Shown here in pieces: positions 39,289-50,766 of a stretch of 64,000 bases of DNA. Position 1 is the first letter of the stretch. Each line of letters starts with the position of its first letter. Made by a program: the position numbers and the translations under genes. The stretch covers positions 124,001 through 188,000 of the forward strand of contig NZ_JACBFQ010000003.1 of the NCBI RefSeq assembly GCF_021401125.1, read 5' to 3'. The notes under the pieces were generated by a model. The model did no database searches and had not been told where the DNA came from. It worked only from the letters and a program-made list of their open reading frames with translations. The stretch comes from Xanthobacter sp. NM-59 (GTDB lineage: Bacteria > Pseudomonadota > Alphaproteobacteria > Rhizobiales > Xanthobacteraceae).

Positions 39289-39993
39289 TCACCCGCCGAG
39301 ATAGGCCGCCCGCACGTGGGGATCGCCGATGAGCTCGGCGCCCTGCCCCGCCATCACGATGCTGCCGGCTTCCAGCAGGTAGGCGTAATCGCACAGCTCC
39401 AGCGCCGCGAAGGCGTTCTGCTCCACCAGCAGCACCGTGGTGCCCGCATCGCGGATGCCGCCGATGATGGAGAACATCTGCTCCACGATGTTCGGCGCGA
39501 GGCCGAGGGACGGCTCGTCGAACAGCACCAGGCGCGGGCGGGACATGAGGGCCCGGCCGATGGCCAGCATCTGCTGCTCGCCGCCGGAAAGGGTGCCGGC
39601 CATCTGGTGGCGCCGCTCCGCAAGGCGCGGGAAGCTCTCATAGATGCGCTCATAGTCCTCGCGCAGGCTGGAATCGCCGCTGCGCAGATAGGCCCCCATG
39701 GCGAGGTTGTCGGCCACGCTCATGTGCGGGAACACCCGCCGGCCTTCCGGACAATGGGCAACCCCCATGCGCAGCATCTTCTGCGGGCCGGCGCGGGTCA
39801 CGTCCTCGCCATCGAGGCGGATGGTGCCGGAGCGGGCCGGAACGAGGCCGGAAATGGTGCGCAGCGTGGTGGACTTGCCCGCCCCGTTCGCCCCCACCAG
39901 GGCCACCAGCTGGCCCCGCTCGACCTTGATCGAAATGCCCCGAAGGGCCGTCACCTGGCCGTAGCCGCAGACGAGATCGGAAATCTCAAGCAT
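39289..39993 (-). CDS. livF: Branched-chain amino acid-type ABC transporter ATPase LivF
   Basis: 234 residues. HAAT-family ATPase: Walker A GANGAGKST, Q-loop region CPEGRRVFPHM, signature LSGGEQQML, Walker B VLFDEPSLGLAP and LLVEQN for the switch region are diagnostic of LivF. It overlaps livG by 8 nt. Last gene of the ten-gene minus-strand cluster; the transported compound need not be an amino acid, since this family also imports aromatic acids, urea and amides. Confidence 0.92.
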   Translation of the reverse strand: MLEISDLVCGYGQVTALRGISIKVERGQLVALVGANGAGKSTTLRTISGLVPARSGTIRLDGEDVTRAGPQKMLRMGVAHCPEGRRVFPHMSVADNLAMGAYLRSGDSSLREDYERIYESFPRLAERRHQMAGTLSGGEQQMLAIGRALMSRPRLVLFDEPSLGLAPNIVEQMFSIIGGIRDAGTTVLLVEQNAFAALELCDYAYLLEAGSIVMAGQGAELIGDPHVRAAYLGG

Positions 39994-40783
39994 GGGCCGC
40001 CTCCTTCTCTTCCAGCCGCGCCGCGCTCTTGCCGAGATAGGCCTCGATCACCGCCGGATTGTTGCGGATCTCGGCCGGCGAGCCCTCGGCGATGAGGCGG
40101 CCGTAATTGAGGCACACGATGCGGTCCGAAACCTCCATCACCATGGGCATGTCGTGCTCCACGAGGAGGATGGAGACCCCCTCCCCCCGCACCTTGCGGA
40201 TGAGACGCACAAAGCCCTGGGTCTCGGACGCGTTCATGCCGGAAACCGGCTCGTCCAGCAGCAGCATGCGCGGCTCGGTGGCCAGCGCCAAAGCGAAGCC
40301 CACCAGCCGTTGCTCGCCATAGGACAGCGAGCCGGCCAGCTCCTGCGCCCGATGGGACAGGCCGACGAGATCGATGATCTCCTCCGCCCGGGCCCGGGCC
40401 GCCTTCTCCGCGGCGCGGGCGCCGGGGGTGGGCAGAAGGCGGTCCAGGAGGCCCGGGCTGCCGAAGCGGTGCAGGCCGATCAGCACATTGTCGAGCACCG
40501 TGTCGTCGGCGAACACGCTGGTGCGCTGGAAGGTGCGGGCAAGGCCCAGGCGGGTGATCTCATTGGGCCGCGTCTTGGCGAGATCGCGGCCGCGGAACAC
40601 CACCCGGCCCTGGGTGGGCTTCAAGAAGCCCGACATGATGTTGAAGGCCGTGGTCTTGCCGGCGCCATTGGGTCCGATAAGGCTCAGGATCTCGCCTTCG
40701 TGCACATCGAAATGCAGGTCCGAGATGGCCGTGAGCCCGCCGAAGCGCATGCCCACATGCTCCACATTGAGGATGGTGCTCAT
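39986..40783 (-). CDS. livG: Branched-chain amino acid-type ABC transporter ATPase LivG
   Basis: 265 residues. Walker A GPNGAGKTT, ARTFQ after the Q-loop, signature LSYGEQRL, Walker B LLLDEPVSGMNA and switch LLVEHDM are the LivG pattern. The start at 40783 is fixed by a 4-nt overlap with livM. Pairs with LivF at the LivHM channel. Confidence 0.92.
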   Translation of the reverse strand: MSTILNVEHVGMRFGGLTAISDLHFDVHEGEILSLIGPNGAGKTTAFNIMSGFLKPTQGRVVFRGRDLAKTRPNEITRLGLARTFQRTSVFADDTVLDNVLIGLHRFGSPGLLDRLLPTPGARAAEKAARARAEEIIDLVGLSHRAQELAGSLSYGEQRLVGFALALATEPRMLLLDEPVSGMNASETQGFVRLIRKVRGEGVSILLVEHDMPMVMEVSDRIVCLNYGRLIAEGSPAEIRNNPAVIEAYLGKSAARLEEKEAAHA

Positions 40784-48638: not shown

Positions 48639-49492
48639 GCCGTCCTTCCGCTGACGAGATCGAGGGCCGCGCGCGTCAGGCGACCTTCCGGGTCGCGCAG
48701 CTCTTCGAGGATGGAGAAGTGGTTGGCCCCCGCGATGGGCAGCACCGAAACCGGCGCGCCGGCCGCCACGCGGCGCGCGGCGAGGGCTTCGGAATCGTGC
48801 ACCAGCGCGGGCACCTCGGCCGTGCCGTAGGAGATGGCGAGATGCTTGCCGCAGACCGGAAGGCGCAGCGGAGAAAGGGTCGCAATCTCCTCGTCCGAGA
48901 GCTGAAGCGCCCCATTCAGGAAGGTGTCGCGGATGGGGGCGAGCTCATACACGCCGGAAATGGCGAGGCCCGCCGTCACCAGCGGATGGCCGAGCTGCAT
49001 CACCGCCAGTTGCGCGCCGGCCGACCAGCCGGAGAGCACCACCGGCCCGGTGACACCCAGCCGCCCACCCTCGCGCGCCAGGAAATCGAGCGCGGCGCCA
49101 ATCTCGGCCACGATGTCGGCCAGCCGCGCCTCAGGCGCCAGCGAATAGCTGGGCAGCACCACCGACCAGCCGTGAGCGGCGAGCCCTTGCGCATAATGGG
49201 CGAACACCTCGCGCGAATTGCGCTGCCAGTAGCCGCCATGGAGGAACACGAGAGTGGGGGCACCGGCCGCGCCGGAGAACAGGTCCAGCTTCTGGCGCCC
49301 GCCGGGGCCATAGGCGATGTCGAGCCCCTCCGGACGTGCGGCGCGATAGGCGGCCGCCGCCACATCGCGCGCGGCGACCCAGTCCGCGCTGTCGGCCACC
49401 GCGGCATTGTTGTTGTAGGCGGCATCCCGCTCGGTCTGGGACAGGGTGTCCCAGACCTCTTGCGGAGCCTTCTGCGTGGCGGGCGCGCTCAC
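48635..49492 (-). CDS. Alpha/beta hydrolase, kynurenine-formamidase-like
   Basis: 285 residues, cytoplasmic. The oxyanion motif HGGYWQ at 85-90, nucleophile elbow GWSAG with Ser157, and GANHFSILEEL with a likely catalytic His near 258 follow the arylformamidase/carboxylesterase type. The N-terminus (WDTLSQTERDAAYNNNAAVADSADW) also matches that group. It probably cleaves a formamide, amide or ester intermediate made by the neighbouring enzymes. Overlaps both flanking genes by 4 nt. Confidence 0.82.
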   Translation of the reverse strand: MSAPATQKAPQEVWDTLSQTERDAAYNNNAAVADSADWVAARDVAAAAYRAARPEGLDIAYGPGGRQKLDLFSGAAGAPTLVFLHGGYWQRNSREVFAHYAQGLAAHGWSVVLPSYSLAPEARLADIVAEIGAALDFLAREGGRLGVTGPVVLSGWSAGAQLAVMQLGHPLVTAGLAISGVYELAPIRDTFLNGALQLSDEEIATLSPLRLPVCGKHLAISYGTAEVPALVHDSEALAARRVAAGAPVSVLPIAGANHFSILEELRDPEGRLTRAALDLVSGRTA

Positions 49493-50766
49493 GCCGCCAC
49501 CACTTCCGGCAGGATCGGCGCATCAGCGTCGAAGCGCTCGCCATTGCGCAGGCAGAAGGCCGGCGTCAGCAGGCGATCGGTGACCACCTTGGTGTCCTCG
49601 TTGTCGCGCAGCAGGAAGCTGCCGCGATTGTCGTCGAGCACCGAGATGTCCGCCGCATAGCCCACCTTCAGGGCGCCGAGACGATCCGAAAGGCCGAGCA
49701 TGGCGGCAGGGTTGGCGGTGACCATGGGCACCACCTGCTCCAGCGGCAGGCCCAGGGCCATCATCGAGCTCATCGCCTGAGTGAGGCTGAAGCGGGCCTG
49801 GCCCTTGAAGGGATGATTCTCGTCGTCGGGATGCTCGGCGGGGGTGCCGGGAGGGGCCGGCACATAGGTGTTGTAGCCGTGCATGTCGGCGCCCAGCGTG
49901 TGGGGCACCACGCCGGCCGCGATGGCCTTCCTGGCGATGCGGTAGGAGAAGTGGCTGCCGTGGCCCACATCGATCTTCAGGCCGCGATCGAGGGCCGCCT
50001 TGATCACGTCGTGCACCTTGCCGTCGCGGTTCACGAAGCCGCCCGGATTGCGCGTGAACGGATGGGCCAGGATGTCGCCCTCCTTCAGGAGCGGAATGAC
50101 CCGGTCCAGGATGGTGTCCGCATCCTCGCCATTGGTGCCGCTCGCCGGCAGGCCCCACAGGGCGCCAAAATGGACATAGAGCGGGATCTCGGCGCGGCGG
50201 GCGATCTCCACCGCCATTTCCATCACCTTGATGCCCCAGCGGGCGAAGCCGCCGATTTCCGCATGCCCCTTGATGCCGCGCACCAGGTCGCGGTTCGCGA
50301 TGGCGGCCCGTACGGTGGCGTCCACATCCACGCATTCAGGGCTGTAGAGGTTCGGATAGTAATGGCCTTCCAGGCCACCGACGAGATAGGCGGAGAGGAA
50401 GGAATAAACGCGGGTCTTCTTCGGCTCCACCATGAACTTGCGGAAGCCCGGCAAGGTCATGCAGGAGGCGCCGCCCTGATCCACCACCGAAGTGACGGCG
50501 GAGTGCACGCCCACCATGTCCGGATCCAGCCCGAAGCGGCCGCTCACATACTGGTAGCAGTGACCGTGGGTATCGATCATGCCCGGCAGCACCAGCTTGC
50601 CCGAGACGTCGATCACGGTGTTGGCGCTCGCCGGAAGAATGGTCTCCTCAATGGCGGCGACCCGTCCGTCGCGCACAGCCACATCGAACACGCCATCACG
50701 CCCCGAAGCCGGGCAGATCACCCGCCCACCCTTCAGAAGGATGTCGTAACCCACTGACTTAACCAT
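49489..50766 (-). CDS. Metal-dependent amidohydrolase (dihydroorotase/deacetylase-like)
   Basis: 425 residues. Amidohydrolase superfamily barrel: N-terminal composite beta domain (DILLKGGRVICPASG), metal ligands His67 and His69 in DTHGHCY, a candidate carboxylated Lys in GIKGHAEIGG, His in LYVHFGALWG and DVGHGSHFSY, and the catalytic Asp in HTLGADMHGYN. The C-terminal half has TANPAAMLGL and VGYAADISVLDD, normal for the family. It hydrolyses cyclic amides, N-acyl or related bonds; exact substrate is unknown. First gene of the ten-gene cluster, 44 nt downstream of a perfect palindrome. Alternative reading as an adenine deaminase-like enzyme is less likely from the metal motifs. Confidence 0.85.
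   Translation of the reverse strand: MVKSVGYDILLKGGRVICPASGRDGVFDVAVRDGRVAAIEETILPASANTVIDVSGKLVLPGMIDTHGHCYQYVSGRFGLDPDMVGVHSAVTSVVDQGGASCMTLPGFRKFMVEPKKTRVYSFLSAYLVGGLEGHYYPNLYSPECVDVDATVRAAIANRDLVRGIKGHAEIGGFARWGIKVMEMAVEIARRAEIPLYVHFGALWGLPASGTNGEDADTILDRVIPLLKEGDILAHPFTRNPGGFVNRDGKVHDVIKAALDRGLKIDVGHGSHFSYRIARKAIAAGVVPHTLGADMHGYNTYVPAPPGTPAEHPDDENHPFKGQARFSLTQAMSSMMALGLPLEQVVPMVTANPAAMLGLSDRLGALKVGYAADISVLDDNRGSFLLRDNEDTKVVTDRLLTPAFCLRNGERFDADAPILPEVVAA

Follow-up and report, generated by a model that had tools for sequence, protein, structure and literature searches.

The ten-gene cluster found in Xanthobacter sp. NM-59 combines a molybdenum hydroxylase, two hydrolases and a Liv-type importer, raising the question of which compound such a combination would take up and degrade. 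We followed up this locus in a 64,000-nucleotide stretch of the genome (the window) and in its relatives, and propose that the cluster very probably serves the catabolism of a small N-heterocycle, whose ring has about an even chance of being a cyclic ureide of the 1,3-diaza type (hydantoin- or pyrimidine-like).

Organization of the cluster

ORF reading of the window placed ten uninterrupted frames, all on the minus strand, at positions 39289-50766, encoding an amidohydrolase (AH), an alpha/beta hydrolase (ABH), the Mo-hydroxylase subunits L, M and S-CoxG, and then LivKHMGF (Table 1). The Pfam families of all ten products score above gathering scores and agree with the original prediction of a same-strand cluster with this composition. 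The 4-nt overlaps said to tie the five enzyme genes together were measured at all four junctions (AH/ABH, ABH/L, L/M and M/S). The importer genes had been described as following without a break, which is correct for the strand but not for the spacing, as gaps of 79 nt (S to livK) and 271 nt (livK to livH) are present, while livH/livM, livM/livG and livG/livF overlap. Frame reading favors the ATG at 42680 over the TTG at 42701 as the livH start, and the ATG at 40783 as that of livG. A promoter scan found 0 promoters (0.8 in shuffles), and the six terminator-like sites detected are at chance level (4.3 in shuffles, sd 2.3).

Table 1. Features of the cluster and of its surroundings, in window positions.
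Feature	Position	Strand	Remarks
AH, amidohydrolase/deacetylase family metallohydrolase, PRK09237/COG3964 type, 425 aa	49489..50766	-	Amidohydro_1/3; NF006689
ABH, alpha/beta hydrolase, 285 aa	48635..49492	-	Abhydrolase_3, BD-FAE
L, Mo-hydroxylase large subunit, 797 aa	46245..48638	-	MoCoBD_1, MoCoBD_2; PDB 1t3q_B
M, Mo-hydroxylase medium FAD subunit, 292 aa	45370..46248	-	FAD_binding_5, PF00941 149.9 bits
S-CoxG, small [2Fe-2S] subunit fused to CoxG/SRPBCC, 394 aa	44189..45373	-	Fer2, Fer2_2, CoxG; PF01799, PF00111, PF06240
livK, substrate-binding protein, 385 aa	42952..44109	-	Peripla_BP_6, PF13458 223 bits
livH, permease	41808..42680	-	BPD_transp_2, PF02653; under UrtB cut-off
livM, permease	40780..41811	-	BPD_transp_2, PF02653
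livG, ATPase	39986..40783	-	ABC_tran, PF00005, PF12399
livF, ATPase	39289..39993	-	ABC_tran, PF00005; best NCBIfam model LivF, under its cut-off
Intergenic region upstream of AH, without divergent MarR gene	50767..51277		Relatives mostly carry MarR here
MarR2, regulator of neighboring convergent operon, candidate member	32341..32880	+	69% in Hansschlegelia plantiphila L012
GMC-family oxidoreductase, candidate member	33255..34883	+	73-74% in L012 and L017 beside AH
Aldehyde dehydrogenase, candidate member	34868..36355	+	87-88% in L012 and L017 beside AH
NMT1/SsuA-type ABC importer genes, weak candidate member	36411..39144	+	ATPase 51% in Bradyrhizobium loci

Enzymes and importer

Pfam found the Mo-cofactor, FAD and [2Fe-2S] domains that together characterize a molybdenum hydroxylase of the xanthine oxidase family. 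The best PDB match of L was quinoline 2-oxidoreductase (1t3q_B, 472 bits), with which it shares an ATNKCPI-xx-YRGV loop, and L carries KGIGEG and YRGVA loops. Among 111 L copies, the catalytic Glu motif KG-x-GE was present in 109, and the variable residue of the GGGFGYK motif was Y in 73, H in 31, Q in 4 and W in 3. In Azospirillum and Caballeronia, S and CoxG are encoded by separate genes.

AH scored 429.6 bits with NF006689 (PRK09237) against an NCBIfam cut-off of 371, which places it with the COG3964 type. The metal set HxH-K-H-H-D is complete, with H67, H69, K166, H199, H235 and D294 invariant in 25 sequences. The nearest solved folds were 8wzy, 8je0 and 2ogj (23-28% identity in fold alignments), a match that adds little beyond the sequence, the fold model being only partly confident (mean pLDDT 66).

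In ABH, the HGGYWQ motif (H85-Q90), S157 and H258 are invariant in 16 sequences. This is the HGG(Y)W motif of kynurenine formamidase together with the triad Ser and His, and E226 probably occupies the acid position. Its PDB matches were 9n8r, 2pbl and kynurenine formamidase 4e11, the last only at E 1.6e-9. ABH also lies below the HSL family cut-off (NF058665, 176.3 vs 320; NCBIfam), and its relatives are as much lipase/esterase-like as formamidase-like.

The importer has the complete HAAT/Liv composition by Pfam, with one binding protein, two BPD_transp_2 permeases and two ATPases. The urea importer UrtABCDE was considered and rejected on NCBIfam scores (UrtA 90.6 vs 492.75, UrtB 167.6 vs 250.3). 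The LivK fold model (mean pLDDT 72) singles out no ligand, since proteins that bind leucine, aromatic acids, urea and pyroglutamate all rank equally as its matches.

Conservation of the unit and alternation of the third enzyme

Co-conservation, on which the original prediction depended, was found in a search of other genomes: of 74 named loci in which the sequence runs on for 9.5 kb or more past AH, 71 retain the order AH..L-M-S-K-H-M-G-F on one strand, indicating that the cluster is more than chance. At AH identities of 70% or more, 86 of 91 loci contain L, and at 50-70%, 16 of 19 do. The unit is shared by many relatives associated with soil or plants, in the genera Xanthobacter, Azorhizobium, Methylobacterium, Methylopila, Bradyrhizobium and Rhodopseudomonas, and this retention suggests that what it degrades is probably widespread in soil or plants. 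The hydrolase-oxidase genes and the Liv importer also occur together on a Geminicoccaceae plasmid, and variant loci retain AH and L while importer type and third enzyme are exchanged. L is not tied to AH, as copies 69-76% identical are found in family genomes without a close AH, beside GntR, PxpA, F420 or ferredoxin genes. Conversely, Hansschlegelia plantiphila (L012) carries AH and ABH in a genome without any L above 32%. Co-conservation, along with a QorL-like Mo enzyme of the ring-hydroxylating type and a metallo-amidohydrolase of the ring-opening type, upholds the idea of one uptake-plus-catabolism unit.

The third enzyme was ABH only in 65, AllG only in 14, neither in 37 and both in 0 of 116 AH loci (of 124 mapped), a sample with at least one duplicate (L146, the contig of L054), many close species, and two AH matches with one in-frame TAA that are similarity matches only (G525 as L194, G448 as L196). 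Owing to the duplicate and the close species, the p-value of this split does not count as independent evidence. The ABH/AllG split follows the AH phylogeny, with ABH only at AH identity of at least 70% and AllG only at 50-62%, so the exclusion may represent a single switch. AllG was absent from the NM-59 genome in a PF06545 search with a positive E. coli control; it is a subunit of oxamate carbamoyltransferase according to Pfam and to passages of PMC12625717. The presence of AllG where ABH is absent, in more distant loci, points to acyl-urea cleavage rather than deformylation as the predicted reaction, and the alternation offers a concrete chemical hint. With relatives that are equally lipase/esterase-like, the deformylating role first given to ABH was a guess.

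Regulator and neighboring genes

A MarR gene is divergent to AH within 1.2 kb in 83 of 91 loci with AH identity of at least 70%. In NM-59, its orthologue is displaced by ~96 kb (G000:C30:270520-270999) and adjoins a GGT-like protein gene and an amidase of the PRK08310 family. This GGT has counterparts in Chelatococcus (L013), where one with 64% identity adjoins MarR and AH, and in Methylobacterium (L029), where one with 68% identity lies ~7 kb away from AH.

The first three genes of the convergent plus-strand operon (32341-36355) neighbor AH in two Hansschlegelia genomes, in L012 in the order MarR2, GMC, ALDH, NCS1, cytosine deaminase and then AH. At E 1e-150 or better, a search of 148 other family genomes yielded just three matches to the GMC oxidoreductase, with 49-50% identity. 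The NMT1/SsuA-type importer genes were not seen beside AH in Hansschlegelia, and the Bradyrhizobium loci with the related ATPase also have a dihydropyrimidinase near AH. With a regulator and probable further genes outside the ten, to call the pathway complete was too strong.

Other neighbors hint that the ring could release a urea-like fragment, several of them being confined to one to five loci. An NCS1 permease is found in 29 of 91 loci, HpxZ in 5 of 124 mapped loci (in Caballeronia L157 over cut-off and with a PRK08310 amidase), and an AtzE-like amidase near the cluster in some loci. Cytosine deaminase is over cut-off in L012 and 84% alike in L017, urea carboxylase is over cut-off near the cluster once (L012), dihydropyrimidinase is over cut-off near AH in L072, and an Asp/Glu/hydantoin racemase family gene lies near L in L209. 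A search of the NM-59 genome, run without a positive control, gave no match to the Hansschlegelia cytosine deaminase, and PF09663 (barbiturase/AtzD) had 0 matches there, as in the control genomes. A pure purine reading was not adopted, as NM-59 has no AllG and some variants have a cytosine deaminase.

Proposed pathway and alternatives

We propose that LivKHMGF would import the N-heterocycle and that L-M-S-CoxG would place a water-derived oxygen on a ring carbon adjoining nitrogen, a reaction type suggested by the family and the QorL-like loops. AH would open the cyclic amide in a metal-dependent manner, and ABH would cut the resulting acyl-urea or amide chain, a task that AllG or AtzE/HpxY-like amidases, present where ABH is absent, perhaps perform in other lineages. 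AH might act before or after hydroxylation; the order Mo enzyme, AH, ABH seems slightly the better guess. Taken as a whole, an explanation by uptake, hydroxylation, opening of a cyclic-ureide ring and acyl-urea cleavage has, in our judgment, an evenly balanced chance of being right.

A pyridine-type (nicotinate-like) pathway, in which L-M-S would hydroxylate a pyridine, with AH and ABH processing lactam or amide intermediates and the genes for ring cleavage located elsewhere, appears unlikely. It would suit the QorL-like L, the arylmalonate-decarboxylase-family protein beside Liv in L141 (L140 by clustering), and Azospirillum L154, where AH has L-M-S-Liv on one side and on the other a second Liv set, which leads into genes annotated as flavin monooxygenase, Asp/Glu racemase, alpha/beta hydrolase, 2,5-dihydroxypyridine dioxygenase and isochorismatase. 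However, the ten-gene unit has no ring dioxygenase, its conserved neighbors, among the named markers mapped, are not of that kind, and variant loci contain AllG, HpxZ, urea carboxylase and cytosine deaminase, which to our knowledge are not part of pyridine routes. An ester, lactone or aldehyde pathway, with AH and ABH as esterases and the Mo enzyme as an aldehyde oxidase, is quite unlikely even though ABH is closest to HSL/lipase-like entries and a GMC oxidoreductase and an aldehyde dehydrogenase lie in the neighboring operon. The AH relative Atu3266 (2ogj), an ester deacetylase (acetyl-mandelate esterase), would also fit, but several variant-locus neighbors are amide-, urea- or nucleobase-related, and aldehyde oxidase models are far under cut-off for L, like every other NCBIfam model for L.

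That the locus is an operon for form II carbon monoxide dehydrogenase whose neighbors are unrelated is highly improbable: a CoxG domain is present and the best NCBIfam score for L belongs to a CO dehydrogenase model, but the scores are far under cut-off (535.5 vs 950 and 458.8 vs 991), none of 111 L copies carries the CO dehydrogenase active-site loop AYxCSFR, for which L was aligned with 8uem and 1ffu, and L is steadily linked to AH and an importer. CO dehydrogenase identity was accordingly rejected for L. It would be equally surprising if a hydrolase-oxidase unit and a Liv importer shared the strand by chance, as the 79-nt and 271-nt gaps and the other importer types of variant loci might suggest, since both parts are kept in the 71 of 74 loci and on the Geminicoccaceae plasmid.

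If the cyclic-ureide reading holds, we tentatively suggest, as a possible but doubtful extension, a previously undescribed oxidative route in which a QorL-like Mo enzyme would yield a ring resembling barbiturate or parabanate, an amidohydrolase of COG3964 would replace the AtzD-type barbiturase, and ABH, AllG and an AtzE/HpxY-like amidase would be interchangeable acyl-urea splitters. Such a route could hold the gene for uracil/thymine dehydrogenase, an activity for which we know of no assigned gene. With the substrate named, a function could be assigned to a widespread Mo-hydroxylase that might be taken for CO dehydrogenase, as well as to a subfamily of amidohydrolases with little-known native reactions.

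Comparison with known systems

The original prediction knew of no described pathway with this exact gene set, and the literature we searched, mostly openly accessible papers, likewise contained no description of it and no assigned substrate. Quinoline 2-oxidoreductase QorMSL (1t3q), the closest solved relative of L, also has a separate large subunit and the GxGE glutamate. However, it has GGGFGQK where L has GGGFGYK, and the cluster differs in the fusion of S to CoxG and in its companions AH, ABH and Liv; the likeness to quinoline 2-oxidoreductase is one of sequence only. The Atu3266/COG3964 amidohydrolases (2ogj, 8wzy, 8je0) belong to the family of AH and have the same metal ligands, but the solved members are only 23-28% identical to it in fold alignments.

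The oxalurate branch of HPX/ALL (HpxY, HpxW, HpxZ, AllFGH) is echoed by the AllG, HpxZ and AtzE-like amidase found with AH or L in variant loci, and by the amidase and GGT-like gene beside the displaced MarR in NM-59, HpxW being a GGT relative. AllF and AllH of that branch, however, appear in none of the annotated tables of variant loci, which are incomplete.

In the lumichrome cluster of Nocardioides simplex, as outlined in parts of PMC12746152, opening of the pyrimidine ring falls to LumH and hydrolysis of the urea moiety to LumI, and LumJ of the same operon is a xanthine-oxidase-type hydroxylase in a single 140 kDa chain. We liken it to our cluster by described function, although ring opening there precedes Mo hydroxylation, unlike in the order proposed here, and Rieske and catechol dioxygenases follow. 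The oxidative pyrimidine route, as given in sections of PMC3758960 and PMC4051656, leads from pyrimidine to barbiturate and, through barbiturase and ureidomalonase, to malonate and urea. Its barbiturase belongs to the AtzD family, which has a fold of its own, whereas AH is of the amidohydrolase superfamily, but the logic that we propose would be alike, with ring oxidation, opening of a cyclic ureide and a final split.

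Layout and conservation of the cluster

The ten minus-strand genes have the gene set and strand of the original prediction when read from their open frames, and their names match Pfam domain scans, which also place a CoxG domain in fusion with the small subunit. Frame coordinates bear out the proposed 4-nt overlaps, four in all, connecting the COG3964-type amidohydrolase (AH), the alpha/beta hydrolase (ABH) and the large (L), medium (M) and small (S) subunits of the molybdenum hydroxylase, and they place livK 79 nt after S and livH 271 nt after livK. The closest relative found among named genomes is Xanthobacter agilis LMG 16336, with an AH 95% identical. 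Upstream genes appear by eye to encode a small membrane protein, an outer-membrane efflux factor and a FUSC-type exporter; the first of them has no match to Pfam, and its X. agilis counterpart, 73% identical, occupies the equivalent position.

Coordinates of the cluster and associated regions
Feature	Coordinates	Strand	Remark
Window	G000:C30:124001-188000		this genome and contig
Ten-gene cluster	50766 down to 39289 (window)	-	AH-ABH-L-M-S-livKHMGF
Genes upstream of cluster	51278-55497 (window)		
MarR2, GMC, ALDH and ABC importer operon	32341-39144 (window)	+	convergent with cluster; candidate second lead
Displaced MarR, GGT and PRK08310 amidase region	G000:C30:266728-270999 (L218:4729-9249)		
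Displaced MarR gene	C30:270520-270999		

Conservation of the gene order was counted in the loci of the best 80 of 116 relatives from an AH scan of named genomes. AH, L-M-S and livKHMGF follow one another on one strand in 71 of the 74 loci that extend 9.5 kb or more beyond AH. The three exceptions (L012, L023 and L039) carry AH and ABH without L at this place; it lies elsewhere in both Jiella genomes (66-67% identical); the Hansschlegelia plantiphila genome had no L above 32% identity. ABH is more mobile among these 80 loci, lying between AH and L in 39, on the opposite strand at the far end of the locus in 18, and following AH in 3 that lack L; in the other 20, some of them incomplete, it was not seen. 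In the wider set of 116 AH loci used for marker mapping, L is present in 86 of the 91 with AH at least 70% identical, in 16 of the 19 with AH at 50-70% identity and in one of six below that. At E up to 1e-70, AH occurs in 19 of 385 sampled genomes of the class and 11 of 398 of the phylum, this genome included in each. A complete ten-gene unit is also present on a Geminicoccaceae plasmid from a coral isolate (CP122394.1, 342 kb; L151), adjoining a thiamine-diphosphate protein and two LLM flavin oxidoreductases.

Enzyme families

AH passes the PRK09237 model (429.6, curated cut-off 371), its six expected metal ligands are all invariant in 25 sequences, and the solved structures nearest to it are 8wzy, 8je0 and 2ogj. 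In ABH, the HGGYWQ motif, S157, E226 and H258 are invariant in 16 sequences; its PDB matches are 9n8r ("Lipase 1", 1.1e-54) and 2pbl (8.1e-27), with a weak match to kynurenine formamidase 4e11 (1.6e-9). The closest PDB entry to L is quinoline 2-oxidoreductase (472 bits, versus 429 for the best CO dehydrogenase), with which it shares ATNKCPI-xx-YRGV in the alignment. KG-x-GE is present in 109 of 111 L copies. CO dehydrogenase was rejected as the identity of L, its characteristic loop occurring in 0 of 111 copies.

Regulator and neighboring operon

In 83 of the 91 loci with AH 70% or more identical, a divergently oriented MarR gene lies within 1.2 kb of AH; two more have it elsewhere in the locus, and in six, one of which is cut by a contig end, it was not seen. 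The window has no MarR gene at 50767-51277, nor does the equivalent place in X. agilis, and an orthologue 78% identical to the X. autotrophicus gene lies ~96 kb away. There it adjoins genes for a GGT-family protein (above the Pfam cut-off, below the NCBIfam cut-off) and a PRK08310 amidase (526, cut-off 391). Copies of this GGT are found beside MarR and AH in Chelatococcus (64% identical, L013) and ~7 kb from AH in Methylobacterium (68% identical, L029), which suggests that the regulator was relocated together with thematically related hydrolase genes. Beyond this region are a CoA-transferase-like gene and an acetate-type symporter.

The link between the neighboring operon and AH is not universal. 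Its regulator MarR2 is 69% identical in the H. plantiphila locus L012, and the GMC oxidoreductase (GMC; 73-74%) and aldehyde dehydrogenase (ALDH; 87-88%) have counterparts beside AH there and in H. quercus (L017). GMC is 70% or more identical in four of ten named AH genomes tested: these two, Methylopila capsulata (other contig, one TGA) and Chenggangzhangella (~55 kb from AH). Identity is lower in X. agilis (56%), H. beijingensis (51%), Methylopila turkensis (50%) and the Jiella genomes (33-41%), H. zhihuaiae had no match at E 1e-60, and 148 other family genomes gave only three matches at E 1e-150 or better, 49-50% identical. Single in-frame stop codons, perhaps decay or assembly errors, occur in the M. 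capsulata GMC gene (L221) and in AH matches G525:C21 and G448:C1 of one genus.

Exchangeable neighbors and limits to coupling

The marker map covers 124 loci, and AH is present in 116 of these (L146 and L054 are the same contig). ABH and AllG, named in Pfam as an oxamate carbamoyltransferase subunit, never occur together in the AH loci (ABH without AllG, 65; AllG without ABH, 14; neither, 37; both, 0). AllG is restricted to loci with AH 50-62% identical, and as the split tracks AH relatedness, it may reflect one evolutionary switch, so that the p-value calculated for it carries little weight. AllFGH and HpxY are oxalurate enzymes according to PMC12625717. Annotated AllG loci are those of Paraburkholderia (L152), Pacificitalea (L153) and Caballeronia (L157), the last also with HpxZ (185 bits, cut-off 135) and a PRK08310 amidase (526, cut-off 391); of all 124 mapped loci, 5 carry HpxZ.

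An NCS1-family permease is present in 29 of the 91 loci with AH 70% or more identical (27 Bradyrhizobium-type, 2 Hansschlegelia), and the Bradyrhizobium ones often have acetamidase/formamidase-like and dihydropyrimidinase genes. In H. quercus the order is GMC-ALDH-NCS1-cytosine deaminase, MarR, AH-ABH-L-M-S-Liv. H. plantiphila, missing L, has MarR2 ahead of GMC-ALDH-NCS1-cytosine deaminase and, downstream, two DUF1989 genes and the sole urea carboxylase seen in any locus (1824 bits, cut-off 1304). In the Jiella loci L208 and L209, L is found together with HpxZ and DUF1989; L208, like L134, has an agmatinase-family gene, and L209 has an Asp/Glu/hydantoin-racemase-family gene and one that resembles cytosine deaminase but scores below its cut-off.

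In the family sample, L copies 69-76% identical occur in genomes without a close AH. Each of 11 such loci that were read (L123-L133) has at least one of GntR (5), PxpA (5), CofD/CofE (6) and a ferredoxin gene (3), so the L family serves in more than one pathway. PxpA is by its model a 5-oxoprolinase subunit, i.e., a lactam hydrolase. This would be consistent with a Mo enzyme that produces a cyclic amide for ring opening by AH in the present cluster and by PxpABC in the PxpA loci. In L123-L126, L (75% identical) is clustered with the F420-biosynthesis genes CofC, CofD and CofE and a gene of an F420-dependent oxidoreductase family. Three of these four loci also carry PxpA, and the clusters may represent a heterocycle pathway linked to F420. 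AH is paired with an unrelated Mo enzyme in L142 (G080:C1), where a 71% identical copy is divergent from a Mo-hydroxylase only 29% identical, with HpxZ nearby.

Proposed substrate class

AH, L-M-S and usually MarR form a steady core, and the importers and the further hydrolase are exchangeable, as expected for a catabolic route whose chemistry is constant and whose ends differ. As far as the families are known, AllG, HpxZ, AtzE-like amidase, urea carboxylase, DUF1989 and agmatinase-family proteins act on N-C-N or amide fragments, which suggests a ring containing N-C-N, of the pyrimidine or imidazole/hydantoin type, that would be opened to an acyl-urea. Pyridine-type chemistry is a less probable alternative, with the Azospirillum locus L154 in its favor. 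A barbiturase-family search of this genome gave no match, and its control was silent too. We classify the cluster as a probable N-heterocycle catabolic unit, in which a Mo-hydroxylase is joined by a COG3964-type amidohydrolase and by an acyl-amide hydrolase that varies between lineages. The gene set is without description in the open-licence full texts searched, which is weak evidence of novelty. In pathway logic, the oxidative pyrimidine route (PMC3758960, PMC4051656) and the lumichrome operon (PMC12746152) come closest among published systems.
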